This document shows, piece by piece, positions 3,811 through 35,651 of a stretch of DNA of 37,582 bases. The stretch's first letter is position 1. Each line of letters opens with the position of its first letter. Both the position numbers and the translations under genes were made by a program. The notes beneath the pieces were generated by a model. The model saw only the letters and a program-made list of their open reading frames with translations, was not told the DNA's origin and searched no databases. The DNA is from Actinomycetales bacterium (GTDB lineage: Bacteria > Actinomycetota > Actinomycetes > Actinomycetales > Microbacteriaceae). The stretch is from positions 1 to 37,582 of the forward strand of contig JAATFB010000034.1 in NCBI GenBank assembly GCA_015655415.1, in the 5' to 3' direction.

Positions 3811-4392
3811 ATGACGCCCGACGAAGCCGCCGACATCCTCGAGGTCGGCAAGGATGCCCCCGCCGCCGACATCCTCGCCGCCTACTCCGCCAAGGCCAAG
3901 GCAGCCGGCGGCACGTACGCGGGCAACCTCGAGGCGGAACGGGCCGAGGTGCAGCTGCTCGGCGAGGCCAGAGTGACGCTGATGACGCATCGCCAGAGGG
4001 CACAGGGGGCGCAGCAGCGCACCGCGGCGGCGCAGCGAACGGACCGCGGGCCGACGTACGGGGAACGCGGCGAGGCCGTCATCGGCTGGCCCGACGAGAC
4101 GAAGGGCAGGCCGCGCACCGCCGAGGAGGAGCTCATGCGCAAGCGCCGGTCGTTCGCGATCGCGATCGTCGGGCTGGTGCTCTCGCTCACCGCGTGGGTC
4201 TGGTGGCTGCTGGAGCCCCTGTCGCTGTTCGGCATCGGTCTGAACATCTGGGCCCTGGTGAGGGTGCGCGGCTACGGGAGCGGTCTGTACACCGGCACGC
4301 GGATCGTGGCATGGGTCTCTGTCGTGCTCGGTGCGCTGGGGCTGCTGGGCAACATCCTGCTGGTCGTCAACGGACTCTCGGCCGCCCACTGA
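3811..4392 (+). CDS. J-domain-like membrane protein with DUF4190-type C-terminus
   Basis: The protein is about 193 aa. Residues 1-60 (TPDEAADILEV..AAYSAKAKAAG) resemble the DnaJ fold, but the HPD motif that activates Hsp70 is absent. Two hydrophobic helices (around residues 118-140 and 165-190), separated by a GYGSGLYTG turn, look like a DUF4190 membrane unit. I chose the ATG at 3811 because AGGAAG lies just upstream and a -10-like GAGAAT (3765-3770) would start the mRNA near 3777; the earlier ATG at 3769 would then be outside the transcript. The gene stands alone before dps. Function is unknown; a membrane-anchored adaptor is only a guess. Confidence 0.75.
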   Translation: MTPDEAADILEVGKDAPAADILAAYSAKAKAAGGTYAGNLEAERAEVQLLGEARVTLMTHRQRAQGAQQRTAAAQRTDRGPTYGERGEAVIGWPDETKGRPRTAEEELMRKRRSFAIAIVGLVLSLTAWVWWLLEPLSLFGIGLNIWALVRVRGYGSGLYTGTRIVAWVSVVLGALGLLGNILLVVNGLSAAH

Positions 4393-4406
4393 CGACCGCG
4401 AAACTT

Positions 4407-4421
4407 AGCACAGCCTGTGCT
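4407..4421 (+). promoter_or_regulatory. Palindromic operator candidate upstream of dps
   Basis: A perfect inverted repeat, AGCACAG-C-CTGTGCT, ends four nt before the -35 box of dps. With its flanks it matches the DtxR/IdeR consensus (TTAGGTTAGCCTAACCTAA) at roughly 11 of 19 positions, including both outer TTAG/CT parts. Iron-dependent control is an inference; another regulator such as a Fur-family protein is equally possible. Confidence 0.55.
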
Positions 4422-4424
4422 TCC

Positions 4425-4452
4425 TTGCGGAATGCACGGGGCCGCGTAGCGT
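4425..4452 (+). promoter_or_regulatory. dps promoter
   Basis: -35 TTGCGG (4425-4430) and -10 TAGCGT (4447-4452) with a 16-nt spacer. The predicted start is near 4458, the A of a small upstream ORF. Confidence 0.65.
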
Positions 4453-4457
4453 TGAAC

Positions 4458-4490
4458 ATGACAACGAGCGAAGGGATCAGCATTCCATGA
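4458..4490 (+). CDS. Leaderless 10-codon upstream ORF coupled to dps
   Basis: An ATG five nt after the -10 box opens a 10-codon frame (MTTSEGISIP). Its TGA overlaps the dps start as ATGA. The dps ribosome site (GAAGGGA) lies inside it. The sequence shows the geometry only; translation of the peptide and coupling to dps are inferred. The same layout occurs at tesB and hsdM. Confidence 0.45.
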   Translation: MTTSEGISIP

Positions 4491-4972
4491 GCACAACCGA
4501 CACCACCCCCCAGGCCACCACCAACCCGGACGTCGCCGCGGGCACGGCGCAGTTCCTCACGCCGGTGGTCATCGAGCTCGAGGCCCTCGTGGTCAACGGC
4601 AAGAATGCGCACTGGAACCTGCGTGGCTCGAACTTCATCGGCGTGCACGAGCTGTTGGACACGTTCGTCTCCCACGCCCAGGAGTGGGCCGACCTCGCCG
4701 CAGAGCGCATCGTCGCACTCGGCCTTCCGATCGACTCGCGGATCGCCACCGTGGCGGCGAACACGAAGGCCGCTCCGCTCAGCGACGGATTCGTGCAGTC
4801 CGACAAGTCCATCGCTGAACTGATCGGTCAGATCGACGTCGCGCTCGACGCGGTGAACACCGCCGTGCGCGAGCTGGAGGAGCTCGACCAGACCAGCCAG
4901 GACGTCGCCATCGAGATCGCTCGCGGGCTCGACAAGGACCGCTGGCTGCTGTTCGCGCACATCGCCAAGTAG
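4487..4972 (+). CDS. dps: Dps family DNA-binding ferritin-like protein
   Basis: The protein is 161 aa, the usual Dps length. The ferroxidase residues at the dimer interface are present: His42 in AHWNLRG, His54 in GVHELLD, Asp69 and Glu73 in the D-L-A-A-E segment. Dps forms a 12-subunit shell that oxidises Fe(II) with hydrogen peroxide, stores the iron and can coat DNA in starved cells. The N-terminal tail is short, Thr-rich and lacks Lys/Arg, so DNA binding by that tail is doubtful. Control is likely through the palindrome at 4407-4421 and promoter at 4425-4452. Translation probably couples to the upstream 10-codon frame. Monocistronic: a terminator follows. Confidence 0.95.
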   Translation: MSTTDTTPQATTNPDVAAGTAQFLTPVVIELEALVVNGKNAHWNLRGSNFIGVHELLDTFVSHAQEWADLAAERIVALGLPIDSRIATVAANTKAAPLSDGFVQSDKSIAELIGQIDVALDAVNTAVRELEELDQTSQDVAIEIARGLDKDRWLLFAHIAK

Positions 4973-4984
4973 CGATCCGATCGC

Positions 4985-5015
4985 GAGGGGTCACGGCCGA
5001 CGGCCGTGGCCCCTC
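4985..5015. terminator. Hairpin between convergent dps and PaiB-like gene
   Basis: A 14-bp stem with one T-G wobble and a GAC loop lies between the converging genes, so it can act in both directions. No T tract. Confidence 0.7.
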
Positions 5016-5073
5016 TGCCATGTGAGTGCACGTCGCCGCGGCGCGTCGGCCCGTCGCCTCCTCGAGCGCCCGG

Positions 5074-5724
5074 TCAGGGGGCGGGCGGCAGCTCCCGTCC
5101 CAGCCGCGCGTGCGTGCGACGCATCTCGGCCGCGAGCCGGGCATCCGCATACGGCCCGTCGCCTTCGAGCTCGGCGATGATCGTGCCGACGATCTCGGGC
5201 GCCCGGTTCTGGCTCATCTTGTTCTTCGCCACGATCCGCGTGGGGGTGAGCCGCACACCGACCGTGCCGCTCAGCAGGCGTGCGGCGTACGCCTCGTTCT
5301 CGGGGGTGTCCGCCATGCGCCGCGGCGCGGCCATCCGCTCCTCGAAACGATCGACGAGGCGTCCGAGCACCTCCCAGTTCTCCTCGTCGCTGAGGAGAAC
5401 CGGCACTCCCGTCAGATGCGCCGCGACGAAGTTCCACGTCGGCACCGCGGGTCGCTCGTCGTACCACCCCGGCGAGACGTAGCCGTGCGGTCCCTGCACG
5501 ACCACGAGCAGCTCATGCCGGCCGAGCTCATGCACCTGATCGTCCGGCCTGCCCAGGTGGGTGAGGATCGAGATCTCCTCGCAGGACTCGTCCAGCAGCA
5601 CCGGGTAGTGCGACGCGACGAGCCCGTTCGATGTCTGACTGACCAGGAGGGCCCACGGGTTCTCGCGAATCAGCCGCTTGATCTCCTCGACGTCGCCCAG
5701 AGCGAAACTCGGGTTCTGTCTCAT
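5074..5724 (-). CDS. PaiB-like FMN-binding protein
   Basis: The protein is 216 aa. The PaiB signature GPHGYVSPGWY starts at residue 78 and continues to P-T-W-N-F near residue 99. The fold is a split-barrel flavin-binding domain related to pyridoxamine-phosphate oxidase. In Bacillus PaiB was described as a negative regulator of sporulation and protease genes; in actinobacteria its role is unclear and it may be an FMN-dependent reductase. The start MRQNPSF has a good site (GGGAGGAACG). Its ATGA also overlaps the stop of an upstream frame in the 91-nt gap behind nei, but that frame extends into nei and may be chance. Probably the last gene of a nei-containing transcript. Confidence 0.85.
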   Translation of the reverse strand: MRQNPSFALGDVEEIKRLIRENPWALLVSQTSNGLVASHYPVLLDESCEEISILTHLGRPDDQVHELGRHELLVVVQGPHGYVSPGWYDERPAVPTWNFVAAHLTGVPVLLSDEENWEVLGRLVDRFEERMAAPRRMADTPENEAYAARLLSGTVGVRLTPTRIVAKNKMSQNRAPEIVGTIIAELEGDGPYADARLAAEMRRTHARLGRELPPAP

Positions 5725-5815: not shown

Positions 5816-6790
5816 CTACGCCTGACATCTCGGACACCAGTACAGCTTTCGCCCCGCCATCATCTCCATCACGATGTGCGTTCCGCACACCCGGCACGGG
5901 AGACCCTCGCGCTTGTACACCCAGTGCCGGTCCTCCCGGCTCGCCATGGCGCGGGCCCAGTCCTCCGGGCTGAGGTCGTCCATCGTCATCATCTGACCCG
6001 TTCGGACCCCGACCTCCAGCAGGTGCGCCAAGTCGCGCCACAGCCGACGCGCCGTGTCGAACGGCACCCTCGTGCCGGGCGTGTGCGGGTTCAACCGGGC
6101 TCGGAACAGCAGCTCGGCGCGGTACACGTTGCCGATGCCGCTGATCACGGACTGGTCCATCAGCAGCACGCCGATCGGCGTCTGCTTCGCCGTGAGGTCC
6201 CGTGCGACGCTCTCCTCCACCTCGGGTCCGTCGTCCACGAGCGGGTCCGGTCCCAGTCCGGCGATGATCTCCGACACGGCATGCTCATCCAGCACCTCGC
6301 ACACGGTCGGACCGCGGAGGTCGGCCACAGCGGTGTCGGTGAGCAGCCGGGCGCGCACGGCGCCGACCGGCTCCGGGGGGAAGACGAAGTCCGAGTCGTC
6401 CTCCTTCTCCGACTCGGACATCCGCAGCCGCGCCCGGCGGGGAGCCCCCATGCTCGCGATCGAGTCCTCGCCCCGCGAGTCCAGGACCGTGCCGTGCTGG
6501 TTCGTCTGCCCGATGCGGCCGCCCGAGGAGCGGATCGTGTCGTCGACCGTGATCTCGCCGGCGAAGTCCCACGCCCCGTAGATGCCGAGGTGCACGCGCA
6601 GCCAGAGGCCGTTGTCGAACTCGAGGAACATCTGCTTGCCGACGGCGCGGGCATCCACCATCGTCGCGCCGTCGATGAGGGCCGCGCCGGAGCTGAACCG
6701 CCCCTGCGGCGAGCTGACGGCGACCCTCTTGCCCACGAAGTTGCGAGAGAACTGCAGGGCGATGCGATGAACGGAGTGACCCTCGGGCAT
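5816..6790 (-). CDS. nei: Endonuclease VIII-like DNA glycosylase (Fpg/Nei family)
   Basis: The 324-aa protein starts MPEGHSVHRIA, so after Met removal the catalytic N-terminal Pro and Glu of the Fpg/Nei family are in place. The central H2TH region is seen around GIGNVYRAELLFRA, with GIGN being diagnostic. The C-terminus has the zinc finger C299-x2-C302-x16-C319-x2-C322. It removes oxidised bases and cuts the abasic site by beta/delta elimination. The charged insert SESEKEDDSD near residues 125-134 is unusual. The start is 8 nt after the rpiB stop, so it is co-transcribed with rpiB. H-S-V after PEG favours Nei over Fpg (MutM); substrate range cannot be set from sequence. Confidence 0.92.
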   Translation of the reverse strand: MPEGHSVHRIALQFSRNFVGKRVAVSSPQGRFSSGAALIDGATMVDARAVGKQMFLEFDNGLWLRVHLGIYGAWDFAGEITVDDTIRSSGGRIGQTNQHGTVLDSRGEDSIASMGAPRRARLRMSESEKEDDSDFVFPPEPVGAVRARLLTDTAVADLRGPTVCEVLDEHAVSEIIAGLGPDPLVDDGPEVEESVARDLTAKQTPIGVLLMDQSVISGIGNVYRAELLFRARLNPHTPGTRVPFDTARRLWRDLAHLLEVGVRTGQMMTMDDLSPEDWARAMASREDRHWVYKREGLPCRVCGTHIVMEMMAGRKLYWCPRCQA

Positions 6791-6798
6791 GGCGGCGG

Positions 6799-7293
6799 CT
6801 ACTCGATGTTCCTGTCGGCCCTGTCGGCGATGTCGCACGTCGCCTCGAACTCGGCGATCTGCGCGATGCGGCGCACGTGCCGCTCCTCGAACGAGAACGG
6901 CTCGGCGATGAACGTGTCGATGAAGGAGATCGCCTCCTCCACGGTGTGCTGCCTGGCGCCGATGGCGATCACGTTCGCGTCGTTGTGCTGCCGCGCCAGC
7001 AGCGCCGTGCTCTTGTTCCACACCAGAGCGGCGCGTATGCCGCGGACCTTGTTCGCGGCGATCTGCTCACCGTTGCCGGATCCGCCGAACACGACGCCGA
7101 GCGACTGCCGCCCGGCCTGCTGATCAGCCACCACACCCTTGGCAGCGTTGATGCAGAACGCCGGATAGTCGTCCAGCGGATCGAAATCCCTCGGCCCGTG
7201 ATCGACGATCTCGTGCCCTGCCTCGCGGAGGTGCCGTTGCAGCGTCTGGGAGAACTCGAGCCCGGCATGGTCCGTGCCGATGTGGATGCGCAT
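6799..7293 (-). CDS. rpiB: Ribose-5-phosphate isomerase B
   Basis: The product is 164 aa, matching RpiB/LacAB sugar isomerases. It begins MRIHIGTDHAG, with the substrate loop TDHAG and the second loop GGSGNGEQ near residues 70-77. The enteric RpiB active-site Cys is absent; mycobacterial RpiB likewise uses a Glu, here about Glu76. It interconverts ribose-5-P and ribulose-5-P in the pentose phosphate pathway. I prefer the second ATG (7293): the -10 box TAGACT ends 7 nt before it, which makes the mRNA leaderless; the upstream ATG at 7299 would lie outside the transcript. First gene of an rpiB-nei unit. Confidence 0.95.
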   Translation of the reverse strand: MRIHIGTDHAGLEFSQTLQRHLREAGHEIVDHGPRDFDPLDDYPAFCINAAKGVVADQQAGRQSLGVVFGGSGNGEQIAANKVRGIRAALVWNKSTALLARQHNDANVIAIGARQHTVEEAISFIDTFIAEPFSFEERHVRRIAQIAEFEATCDIADRADRNIE

Positions 7294-25630: not shown

Positions 25631-25864
25631 GAAGGCTCCGGGCCTGCCGTGGCTGCGACCGAGAATCGTTGAGAATCCGCGTGTTTTCGCGGTTCTCATG
25701 GGGTTCAGTGTACCTATGAGTACCGGCTCGTAACGGCCAATCTGGTCACTTCTGAGGGCAATCTGGTCACCAAAGTGGTCACCAATTTCAACGGCACCGG
25801 TTCTTCACACGACCGGCATCTGAATGTAGTTTTCCTGCCTCCAGACCCAACCCACGGTCAGGGA
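25631..25864 (+). repeat. Direct repeat, copy A (234 bp)
   Basis: This stretch aligns without any gap to 27142-27375 at a constant offset of 1511 bp. I count about 59 differences by eye, near 75% identity, higher (about 82%) in the first 160 bp. It holds a short hairpin (25671-25697) and repeated TCTGGTCAC words. Its right 85 bp corresponds to the coding 3' end of the gene at 27290-27598, so it carries a decayed piece of a second copy of that gene. Confidence 0.85.
25671..25697. repeat. Hairpin inside repeat copy A
   Basis: Arms GAGAA(T)CCGCG and CGCGGTTCTC pair over 10 bp with one bulged T around a 6-nt loop. In copy B (27182-27208) two substitutions each break a pair and are not compensated, so a conserved structural role is not supported. 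Confidence 0.5.
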
Positions 25865-25996: not shown

Positions 25997-26371
25997 ATGG
26001 CGACCCGAGTCTTCGTGAGCTTCGACTATGACAACGATGCGCGACTGAAAGACCTGCTGATCGGGCAGGCAAAGAATCCGGGCTCGCCCTTCGAGGTGCA
26101 GGACTGGTCCGTCAAGACCGCCAGGCCCGGATGGCGTACAGATGCGAAGAATCGCATCGCGCGCAGTTCCCAGGTCGTCGTCCTTTGCGGGCGTCATATG
26201 GGTACGGCCTCCGGTGTGAATGTCGAGATCGAGCTCGCGCGCGAGGCCGGCAAGCCGTACTTTCTGCTTGCCGGCTACGACAATTCAACTCGACCCACTG
26301 CCGCCGCTGGCGACAAGCTGTACAAGTGGACTTGGGAGAACCTGAAGATTCTGATCGCCGGGGGGCGGTAA
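25997..26371 (+). CDS. TIR-like domain protein (MTH538/ThsB-type, DUF1863-like)
   Basis: The 124-aa protein is a single TIR-like flavodoxin-fold domain. Visible strands and loops: TRVFVSFDYDND (first strand and BB-like loop), F-E-V-Q-D-W-S, S-S-Q-V-V-V-L-C-G, and G-V-N-V-E-I-E-L-A-R-E-A-G with Glu77 where TIR enzymes carry the NADase glutamate; it ends L-Y-K-W-T-W-E-N-L-K. In Thoeris systems ThsB of this fold makes a cyclic ADP-ribose signal from NAD+ on phage infection; whether this protein is an enzyme is inference. The start has AGGAA just upstream; a longer frame would begin inside repeat copy A. First of three tightly packed genes with A/T-richer codons than the backbone. Confidence 0.85.
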   Translation: MATRVFVSFDYDNDARLKDLLIGQAKNPGSPFEVQDWSVKTARPGWRTDAKNRIARSSQVVVLCGRHMGTASGVNVEIELAREAGKPYFLLAGYDNSTRPTAAAGDKLYKWTWENLKILIAGGR

Positions 26372-26376
26372 CACTG

Positions 26377-26841
26377 ATGCTGCCTCTCGAAGCGTTTGAC
26401 ATGTACAAAATGGCTGTCGAGATGGCCGACCGTGTATCGGCGCGACGCGGCCAGGCGAACCAGTTCTATCTGGCGGTCGAAACGCTTCTGCTCGGCATAC
26501 CTGCATCGATCACGCTCCTGCTGTCCGCAAGCGCATCTGCGGGTCTCGATCCGTGGGTTACGTTGGTGCTCGGCATCTGCGGTCTTGCGGTCAGCACAAT
26601 CTGGTGGATGCAGCTTCGCAGCTACCGCGACCTGAACACCGCGAAGTTCAAGGTCATCAACAAGATTGAAGCTGACTATTTCGAGGTCCGTCCGTTTTCA
26701 GACGAGTGGGCACACCTGAAGCACGATGAGAACATCAAGCGGTGGCGTGGCCGGTACGCAGAACTCGGTACGGTGGAACGCGTCATGCCCGCGGTGTTCG
26801 CCGTGCTGTATCTGGCGCTGATTGTGATTGGGTTCCTATGA
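26377..26841 (+). CDS. Three-helix membrane protein of the TIR cassette
   Basis: The 154-aa protein has hydrophobic helices near residues 30-50, 60-80 and 135-154. Between helices 2 and 3 is a charged cytoplasmic stretch with R-S-Y-R-D-L-N-T-A-K-F-K-V-I. This arrangement resembles small membrane proteins that I recall named 'RipA family octameric membrane protein' and is also like SLATT effectors; I could not check either. It begins five nt after the TIR stop and overlaps the next gene (ATGA). By analogy with other TIR and SLATT systems it could be a pore-type effector that damages the membrane when the TIR protein signals. That role is inferred from context only. Confidence 0.8.
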   Translation: MLPLEAFDMYKMAVEMADRVSARRGQANQFYLAVETLLLGIPASITLLLSASASAGLDPWVTLVLGICGLAVSTIWWMQLRSYRDLNTAKFKVINKIEADYFEVRPFSDEWAHLKHDENIKRWRGRYAELGTVERVMPAVFAVLYLALIVIGFL

Positions 26842-27134
26842 ACTATCTCGACCAGGTCGCCAGCGAAATCAAGCAGGCGATTCCAGCGGAGTTACGCCCG
26901 GACAACGACGCACAAGTCCTGTATCGCTTATACGCGCTCCTTGTCCTCACACGAGGAGTCGAGACCACCCTCGCTAATGTCCACGATGCATGGTCGGTGT
27001 GGATGCTCGGGCGTGAGCCCAGCCACGAGTCGCTGGTTCCCTTCGAGAGTCTTCCCGAAAAAGTGCGACAGGAAGACGAGCCATATCAGCGTGCGATAGT
27101 TGTCGTTGCGCGGGCTAGAACGGTCAGAACATAG
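26838..27134 (+). CDS. Small protein of the TIR cassette (DUF7701-like)
   Basis: The 98-aa protein is mainly helical: MNYLDQVASEIKQAIP, then R-L-Y-A-L-L-V-L-T-R-G, N-V-H-D-A-W-S-V-W-M and H-E-S-L-V-P-F-E-S-L. I recall related short proteins in actinobacteria annotated DUF7701, often next to TIR-like genes; this needs a search. No signal, membrane helix or catalytic motif is visible. The last 15 residues (VVVARARTVRT end) look less regular. The ATGA overlap with the membrane protein means co-translation, so it is likely a regulator or chaperone of the other two. It stops only seven nt before repeat copy B. Confidence 0.75.
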   Translation: MNYLDQVASEIKQAIPAELRPDNDAQVLYRLYALLVLTRGVETTLANVHDAWSVWMLGREPSHESLVPFESLPEKVRQEDEPYQRAIVVVARARTVRT

Positions 27135-27141
27135 AAGTTCT

Positions 27142-27375
27142 GAGGGCTCCGGGCTCGCCGCGGCTGCGGCCGAGAATCGTTGAAAATCCGCGTGATTTCA
27201 CGGTTCTCATGAAGTTGAGTGTACTGACGCGTATCGGCCGATGACGGCCAATCTGGTCGCTCCTAAGGTCGATCTGGTCACCAAGGTGGTCACCGATTCC
27301 AGCGTCCCTGATTCTTGAAGTACGCCGCACTCGGATGCGGTTTTCCGGCGTCCGGGTCCCGATAGCGATCAGGGA
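27142..27375 (+). repeat. Direct repeat, copy B (234 bp)
   Basis: The partner of 25631-25864. Its right part (27290-27375) is the coding 3' end of the intact 102-aa gene; the rest is non-coding. It begins immediately after the third cassette gene. The words ATCTGGTCACCAAG and GTGGTCACC repeat inside it, as in copy A. Confidence 0.85.
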
Positions 27376-27598
27376 GGCTATGAATCCACTCGACAGCTTC
27401 CCTCGGGAGGAAGCGAGGATCGACTTGGTTGACGTACCCCCATAGCGACTCACGTGACCAGTAAGGATCATTCCGAGATGGACCGCCGACCTCGGCGATC
27501 TCCTCAAGTACAGGCTCAGCGAGCGCCGCATACGGATGACTCTCGATCCACCGACGGTATGCCTTGTTCAGCAACGGGAGCCACTCTTGAATTTCCAT
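27290..27598 (-). CDS. Protein of unknown function at the end of the hsd operon
   Basis: The 102-aa protein starts MEIQEWLPLLNKAY nine nt after the hsdR stop, with AAGGGGG as ribosome site, so it is the last gene of the hsd operon. It is acidic-basic mixed and Trp/Tyr-rich (R-R-W-I-E-S-H-P-Y-A-A-L; P-Y-W-S-R-E-S-L-W-G-Y-V) with no membrane helix. I do not recognise the family. A decayed copy of its last 28 codons is found in repeat copy A (compare P-D-R..A-G-K-x-H..K-N..R), so the gene has been duplicated or exchanged here. An anti-restriction or assembly role is possible but unsupported. Confidence 0.65.
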   Translation of the reverse strand: MEIQEWLPLLNKAYRRWIESHPYAALAEPVLEEIAEVGGPSRNDPYWSRESLWGYVNQVDPRFLPREAVEWIHSLPDRYRDPDAGKPHPSAAYFKNQGRWNR

Positions 27599-34727: not shown

Positions 34728-35651
34728 CTACCGGGGCTCTCGATCTCGATAGAACTGGACGCCGCTCATCGCCTCGGCGAGGACGAACGTGGTCACGCGC
34801 TCCTCGGCCGAGTCGAACAACTCATTCCACGCGCGCATCGCTGCTTCCAGAGCATCGAGTGCCCGCCCGGCCTCGGCGATGAGAAGACGGTGGTCGTCAG
34901 GTTGAAGCGTTTCACCCTGATACACGGTGAGCACGCTGAATCTCTCGCCGTCGGCCTCGGCCTCAATCCACGGGCTGGCAGGTTCTACTCCACCGGCAAC
35001 CGACTGCGGGCGCCAACGGTGGAAGTCAGTGTTTCGGCGCTCAACGAGTCTGGTCCATCGGTCGTCCTCCACGAGCGTCCGCAGAAGTCCGACGATCTCT
35101 CGGACTTCATCCCTGTGATGGTCGACGGCCTGCTCCAGCCCAGTCACGGATCCCGCGTTGAAAGCCAGCCAGTGGTCGGTCTTCTCATCGAAAGGAGGGA
35201 ACCCCTTGCTCGCTTTGAATCGCTGCGTGAGCACCGCTCGGCTACGGTTATCGAACGCGAGCAAGCGCGCAGTCACGTTGACCAGCCCATGGGCTGCGGC
35301 CAAGGCATAGTAGCTGGCGATCTCGGCGAGCGCGCGTGCAGGAGGACGAACCTCGTTATCGGAGTGAACGCTGCTGAGCCATGCGCATGCGTCGCGGTAA
35401 GCAGCACCCGCTAGACCGAGTTGCTCCCCCGCCGAAGCGATGCGACCGTAGAGCACATAGGCGCGGTTGGGCTGAACTCGAAGGCTAATCGCGCGCATCT
35501 CCTGAAACGTCGCCTGCTCGCCACGGACTTGCCAAGCGAGCGCCGTCTGAATGACGCGCTGATCGAACGCACTGTAGTCCTCGACCCGGCCAGAGAACAG
35601 CGTGGGCACGATGATCCCAATGGGAGCCCCAACGGAGTCTGCGTCTGTCAT
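34728..35651 (-). CDS. HEPN-like protein of unknown function
   Basis: The 307-aa protein is almost all helical, with no membrane segment. Near the middle it has R-R-N-T-D-F-H-R-W-R-P-Q-S; Arg206-x4-His211 matches the R-x4-6-H motif of HEPN ribonucleases, and this combination next to a restriction locus is typical of HEPN toxins or effectors. I do not recognise a named family; the HEPN call is inference from the motif and predicted helices. No antitoxin-like gene is directly adjacent. The ATG at 35651 lies eight nt after TATAGC (35660-35665, minus), so the mRNA may be leaderless. It stands alone upstream of the hsd operon on the same strand. Confidence 0.65.
   Translation of the reverse strand: MTDADSVGAPIGIIVPTLFSGRVEDYSAFDQRVIQTALAWQVRGEQATFQEMRAISLRVQPNRAYVLYGRIASAGEQLGLAGAAYRDACAWLSSVHSDNEVRPPARALAEIASYYALAAAHGLVNVTARLLAFDNRSRAVLTQRFKASKGFPPFDEKTDHWLAFNAGSVTGLEQAVDHHRDEVREIVGLLRTLVEDDRWTRLVERRNTDFHRWRPQSVAGGVEPASPWIEAEADGERFSVLTVYQGETLQPDDHRLLIAEAGRALDALEAAMRAWNELFDSAEERVTTFVLAEAMSGVQFYRDREPR

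Follow-up and report, generated by a model that had tools for sequence, protein, structure and literature searches.

Among the anti-phage systems described so far, Thoeris is one of those that most resemble the three-gene cassette treated here, which lies at positions 25997 to 27134 of a contig from an Actinomycetales bacterium (JAATFB010000034.1, assembly GCA_015655415.1; the window below means this whole stretch of 37,582 nucleotides) and encodes a TIR protein, a membrane protein of the 8xMP family and a small protein of the family DUF7701. Thoeris types I, II and IV and their signals have been summarised (PMC12847820), and a 'type VI' signalling through 2'-cyclic ADP-ribose (2'cADPR) has been mentioned (PMC13232231). 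A TIR gene beside a membrane protein with two transmembrane helices (2TM) or of the SLATT type was already described (PMC9503650), and SLATT was earlier proposed to be a pore responsive to a nucleotide signal (PMC7159879). That ryanodine-receptor (RyR) domains bind and cut TIR signals has been demonstrated for phage proteins: the phage protein RyDEP binds and cuts 2'cADPR and 3'cADPR, the Thoeris signals, contacting the ligand through H75, W78, H100 and D117, of which H75 and D117 are catalytic; of eight further homologues tested, six bind the signals and none cuts them, and two homologues were shown to block Thoeris (PMC13232231). In type III CRISPR systems, the ring nucleases Crn2, Csx1-Crn2 and AcrIII-1 are distributed as stand-alone host proteins, effector fusions and viral proteins (PMC7293037).

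Our analysis indicates that the third protein of the cassette is, judged by profile and residues, a divergent RyR domain, and we read the operon, with a probability of roughly 0.45, as an anti-phage alarm in which DUF7701 captures or cuts the signal as a host-encoded brake. Should DUF7701 bind what the TIR of this operon makes, TIR immunity would have a RyR-domain regulator encoded by the host itself. The literature searched yielded no paper about DUF7701 and none that treats 8xMP together with Thoeris. The three genes are as follows.

25997-26371, + strand: TIR gene of the ThsB type, 124 amino acids, with a PF08937 match and Glu77 as candidate catalytic residue
26377-26841, + strand: 8xMP gene (octameric membrane protein family), 154 amino acids, PF24838, predicted membrane effector
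26838-27134, + strand: DUF7701 gene, 98 amino acids, putative divergent RyR domain, PF24792, predicted signal-binding (H49, W52, H63, D80)

A putative RyR domain and its two partner proteins

The third protein matches Pfam family PF24792 (DUF7701) at 114.4 bits, and its structural model is all-helical with a predicted local distance difference test score (pLDDT) of 95.5, as expected from a preliminary description of this DNA, made from the letters alone, which had called it a helical protein of 98 residues. A profile built from 34 sequences (that of the window and 33 database relatives) gave 15 matches in PDB at E<=10, and all 15 are RyR chains; the best one, at E 1.6e-6, is a chimera of two copies, each of which alone reaches about 0.2, and the best single-copy RyR chain has E 0.0055. 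H49, W52, H63 and D80 align to H, W, H and D of a Bacteroides RyR protein, which carries short insertions relative to DUF7701 in this alignment. All four occur in every one of 68 full-length DUF7701 rows, 43 of them from hosts or databases and 25 from viruses; the set includes near-copies and leaves out partial rows, namely L012 and two pieces in L053. Their H-W and H-D spacings of 3 and 17 (49-52 and 63-80) are equal to those of RyDEP (75-78 and 100-117), a match that uses the residue numbers given in PMC13232231 and not the RyDEP sequence. The gathering score of the Pfam RyR family PF02026 is not reached by DUF7701 (13.4 vs 27.4 bits), and the fold matches of its model to RyR are modest. We thus call DUF7701 a divergent RyR domain by profile and residues, not by fold. 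Foldseek and VIA rows without RyR (among them separase and antitermination protein Q) were considered and judged to be common helical arrangements.

DUF7701 also occurs in viruses, where it is matched by 40 Streptomyces phage records. Neither TIR nor 8xMP is found on any of 25 viral contigs with DUF7701, in DNA of up to 6 kb on each side and less at contig ends. In a tree of 31 different sequences (26 viral-type rows and nine from cells), viral and cellular copies are split by one branch, whose support of 88/96 stays under the tool's 95/80 mark; none of 500 label shuffles was as low. For 72 of 108 listed plus-strand neighbours, taken without near-copies from 18 of the 25 viral loci, no NAD+ (nicotinamide adenine dinucleotide) salvage family was found in Pfam at E<=0.001, and the commonest families were WhiB and RNA ligase with two matches each. 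The preliminary statement that no role is known for the third gene is hence overtaken by the RyR-type profile match, the residues matching those of a known cyclic-ADP-ribose site and the viral copies without TIR or 8xMP.

The first protein scores 27.0 bits against PF08937 (ThsB_TIR), over the cut-off of 21.2, and is in this sense a ThsB-family TIR as found in Thoeris; its matches to the PADLOC ThsB models are weak (best E 5.8e-5), and its best PDB sequence match is the TIR 8fz9 at E 0.0038. From 717 homologues found, of which the best 120 were listed, 37 were aligned with the protein of the window; Glu77 is invariant in 38 of 38 sequences and is kept in 25 of 25 TIRs having a recognised effector neighbour, which bears out the earlier assignment of a TIR-like first gene with a candidate catalytic Glu77. 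Many homologues begin at the same Met, backing the start codon. Catalysis by this TIR is predicted from knowledge of the family.

The sole Pfam match of the second gene is PF24838 (8xMP), at 128.6 bits vs a gathering score of 30. Three hydrophobic segments in the hydropathy profile and a helical model (pLDDT 89.5) agree with the three-helix membrane protein proposed before, and the proposal that this partner is not of the ThsA type holds as well, 8xMP being neither SIR2-SLOG nor caspase. The protein scores below the NCBIfam SLATT_1 cut-off (24.7 vs 41 bits), and no PDB relative was found by sequence, profile or Foldseek, the best fold match having E 0.53. SLATT and RyR domains were reportedly treated together by Burroughs et al. 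in 2015 (NAR). R23, R24, W76, N87, K90 and E110 are common to 19 of 19 8xMPs compared, including four without a recognised TIR in the DNA fetched. These conserved polar residues were considered as a signal sensor and dropped, since the same residues are kept without a recognised TIR neighbour, which argues against a TIR-specific sensor site. On the Rhizobium plasmid pRL22b6 (L078, 3477-3935), an 8xMP gene comes immediately after one for NB-ARC, so 8xMP proteins may also work with sensors of other kinds.

Gene company and surroundings

TIR and 8xMP lie beside DUF7701 at nine of 12 distinct cellular places, most of which were found by the search with DUF7701: the window, L004, L006, L008, L010, L011, L053, L063 and L082. 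In the eight of these other than L053, the DUF7701 proteins are 37-55% identical to each other. Whether the three genes stay together in homologous neighbourhoods, the check proposed in the preliminary description, is thereby answered by the trio in eight further diverged cellular loci. The three cellular places without the trio are L007, whose contig begins 222 nucleotides upstream, L012, with a 48-residue DUF7701 fragment, and the phage-like plasmid L080, the latter two lacking TIR and 8xMP. L009 was not counted because 5.8 kb of it match L008 at 99% identity, and among plasmid matches of TIR, 8xMP and DUF7701 outside L053 the context was opened for nine besides L080. The 8xMP and DUF7701 open reading frames (ORFs) overlap in the window, L004, L006, L008 and L063; in L010, a single ORF at 5989-6801, directly after the TIR gene, contains DUF7701 and then 8xMP, both over cut-off. 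In L053, which is counted as a trio, the DUF7701 gene is broken into two frames, and an IS21 element follows closely downstream. This locus is the Paenarthrobacter plasmid pYJN5-2, where some 1.4 kb separates two TIR operons, TIR-caspase-RyR-like at 1044-2690 and TIR-8xMP-DUF7701 at 4127-5291.

A rough link by equally sized longest contigs ties 12 of 33 DUF7701 clusters to a listed TIR or 8xMP match and gives 13 ties between TIR and 8xMP, one of them also with a DUF7701 match, among the matches listed. Because sizes are given per cluster and the best 120 TIR and 8xMP matches were listed, only positives count in this link, which is not read as absence of DUF7701. The family is rare, being found in two genomes out of 297 in the order and four out of 396 in the phylum, that of the window included.

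Related TIRs are accompanied by different effectors and third genes. The order TIR-caspase-RyR-like is seen in L040, L041, L042 and L053, TIR-caspase-SLOG-like in L057, L061 and L064 (L050 has an adjoining SLOG-like gene on the opposite strand), and TIR-8xMP-SLOG-like in L077; the SLOG-like genes L077:3968-4441 and L057:5361-5840 encode proteins 44% identical. Both labels stand for weak Pfam matches, RyR at E 0.0047 for the L053 gene and YpsA/SLOG at E 0.0033 (L057) and 0.015 (L077), to which the remaining RyR-like and SLOG-like genes were tied by phmmer. By eye, the RyR-like third gene of L040, L041, L042 and L053 has H..W and a late D, without the middle His of DUF7701. No RyR-like or SLOG-like third gene was found in the DNA fetched for the TIR-8xMP pairs of L046, L047 and L056 or for the TIR-caspase pairs of L054, L055 and L062, the sequence of L062 ending about 0.5 kb past the caspase; nor do further TIR-8xMP pairs of Halorubrum and Synechococcus (L086, L087) have one, as judged from annotation only.

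Whole-genome searches with the TIR matched 18 distinct genomes: three have it beside 8xMP, six beside a caspase, with a RyR-like or SLOG-like third gene in five of the six, and nine were unassigned, namely L058-L060 (123-129 bits) and the weak L043-L045 and L065-L067 (under 41 bits). At L058:1444-2921 (129 bits) and L060:1501-2381 (124 bits), the TIR is followed by a second ThsB_TIR gene, which in L058 is followed by a HIT-domain gene. In L059 no recognised neighbour of the TIR was found, and the viral-contig TIRs of L048 and L052 have no recognised partner. Two loci were set aside: L049, where a caspase and a RyR-like gene lie about 1.7 kb from the TIR on the other strand, was not counted as an operon, and L051, whose SLOG-like gene lies on the opposite strand at a distance of about 3.6 kb, was not counted as SLOG-linked. 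Traced on a TIR tree with 25 rows, the effector label takes seven changes, and well-supported branches force no fewer than four of these; the label shows no clear clustering, 87 of 500 shuffles giving as low a count. From these changes, effectors appear to have been exchanged within one TIR family.

In the window, the TIR and 8xMP genes are separated by 5 nucleotides and the 8xMP/DUF7701 junction is an ATGA overlap, just as the preliminary description had it for the three plus-strand genes, and the cassette is indeed richer in A/T than the backbone (G+C content 58.9% vs 67.0% in the window). A feature absent from that description is that the cassette lies between two direct repeats:

25631-25805, + strand: direct repeat, left copy, flanking the cassette, 81% identical to the right copy over 175 nucleotides
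27142-27316, + strand: direct repeat, right copy, flanking the cassette, beginning 7 nucleotides past the DUF7701 stop

The ungapped match between them spans 247 nucleotides at 74% identity. The repeats may be boundary marks of a mobile element. No third full copy was found in the genome itself, only a 25-nucleotide piece at 1847-1871 of contig C49 (L003), and a plasmid search with the flanking repeat as query gave no match. The motif of 25 nucleotides, common to the flanking repeats and C49:1847-1871, consists of two TGGTCACC-type boxes, and on C49 it sits between a tyrosine-integrase-like ORF and what is, by eye, likely a tRNA-Gln gene. The right repeat copy extends into the end of an ORF at 27290-27598 (- strand), near the restriction genes, which has no Pfam, NCBIfam or PADLOC match at E<=1. 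As to the defence genes said to surround the cassette, HsdR (type I restriction) and AbiEii are recovered by library match; the 'HEPN' label of the ORF at 34728-35651 (- strand), which also adjoins the restriction genes, is unconfirmed, because no Pfam, NCBIfam or PADLOC model matches it at E<=1.

Brake, receptor or another role

In the reading we prefer, the three genes would be transcribed together, the TIR would turn NAD+ into a cyclic-ADP-ribose-type signal, and this signal would switch on the 8xMP effector, which would damage the membrane; DUF7701 would bind or cut the signal and so restrain the response, and the phage copies, which would use the same fold, are predicted to be counter-defence proteins. 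We lean to this brake because of the biochemistry of RyDEP, the third genes that cross effector types and are absent from some pairs, as would be compatible with a signal modulator, and the likeness to Crn2, AcrIII-1 and Csx1-Crn2. A brake of this kind would account for the restraint of a lethal TIR alarm. Two findings weigh against it, namely that the RyR subtype tracks the effector and not the TIR, and that the TIR-8xMP pairs met in whole-genome searches with TIR or 8xMP (window, G036, G522) all have DUF7701, and both favour DUF7701 as a receptor, which would bind the TIR-made cyclic ADP-ribose and open or assemble 8xMP as a split ligand-gated channel. The fusion of DUF7701 and 8xMP right after the TIR gene in L010 and the overlapping ORFs of the five loci named above fit such a channel, as does the lack of a TIR-specific sensor site in 8xMP, whose residues are the same with or without a TIR neighbour and which stands beside NB-ARC in L078; in animal RyRs, moreover, the RyR domain sits on the channel (PMC13232231). 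However, L046, L047, L056, L086 and L087 have TIR-8xMP pairs without a recognised DUF7701, and the phage RyR relatives studied are inhibitors (PMC13232231), so that we hold the receptor to be possible and rather doubtful. With DUF7701 as receptor, TIR signalling in bacteria would be linked to a domain found in the calcium channels of animals, whose own interaction with cyclic-ADP-ribose signals was left to future study (PMC13232231). The broader proposal, in which a TIR signal acting on a RyR domain to open a pore would be a bacterial forerunner of the cyclic-ADP-ribose/ryanodine-receptor pathway, with the phage RyR domain as a decoy, seems to us somewhat unlikely. Under brake and receptor alike, the phage DUF7701 copies would be concrete candidate anti-TIR proteins.

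DUF7701 might also bind no nucleotide and have another role, for example as a chaperone or a partner that neutralises 8xMP until infection; the two genes are adjacent, often overlapping and once fused, like toxin-antitoxin pairs, but the conservation of H-W-H-D in every full-length row and the viral copies without 8xMP make this improbable in our view. Still less credit is due to the notion that the operon is not anti-phage at all, its genes merely co-travelling, serving another stress response or being no longer functional here. For it may be cited that no phage assay of the cassette was found in the literature searched and that the cassette is rare, going by the DUF7701 counts in the order and the phylum given above; on the other side, the reading frames of all three genes are open and conserved, type I restriction and AbiEii are encoded close by, and plasmids and viral contigs carry relatives of the TIR with a caspase or 8xMP gene as neighbour.

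Comparison with known systems

The cassette resembles Thoeris in that a ThsB-type TIR adjoins a separate effector candidate, and type IV in particular in that caspases adjoin TIRs related to its own. It differs in the effector candidate, which is 8xMP and not SIR2-SLOG (type I), TM-macro (type II) or caspase (type IV), and in the third gene with a putative RyR domain. With RyDEP, DUF7701 shares a domain of RyR type, H-W-H-D at matching spacings and the occurrence in phages; however, it is a separate Pfam family, present also in host loci beside TIR and 8xMP, and PMC13232231 uses PF02026, with neither 'DUF7701' nor 'PF24792' appearing in the part of its text searched.

A likeness of pattern, drawn also from PMC7213978, exists with Crn2, AcrIII-1 and Csx1-Crn2, the type III CRISPR ring nucleases, where a signal-handling domain likewise occurs in host defence loci, in effector fusions and in viruses; signal, family and system are different from those of DUF7701. 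The systems described in PMC9503650 combine, as here, a TIR gene with a small membrane protein for which a response to derivatives of ADP-ribose is predicted, but the membrane protein of the cassette is 8xMP, below the SLATT_1 cut-off, and RyR or ryanodine is not mentioned in the available text of that paper. The TIR-8xMP core may already be named in a preprint catalogue of TIR systems (doi 10.64898/2025.12.03.692087). The preliminary view that a TIR and a membrane partner make up an uncharacterised signalling system is supported in part, by the ThsB-like TIR, the constancy of the gene company and an effector candidate that is neither SIR2-SLOG nor caspase, while the pairing as such is not new, since a TIR beside a 2TM/SLATT protein was described before; what the cassette adds to the known systems is therefore its third gene.
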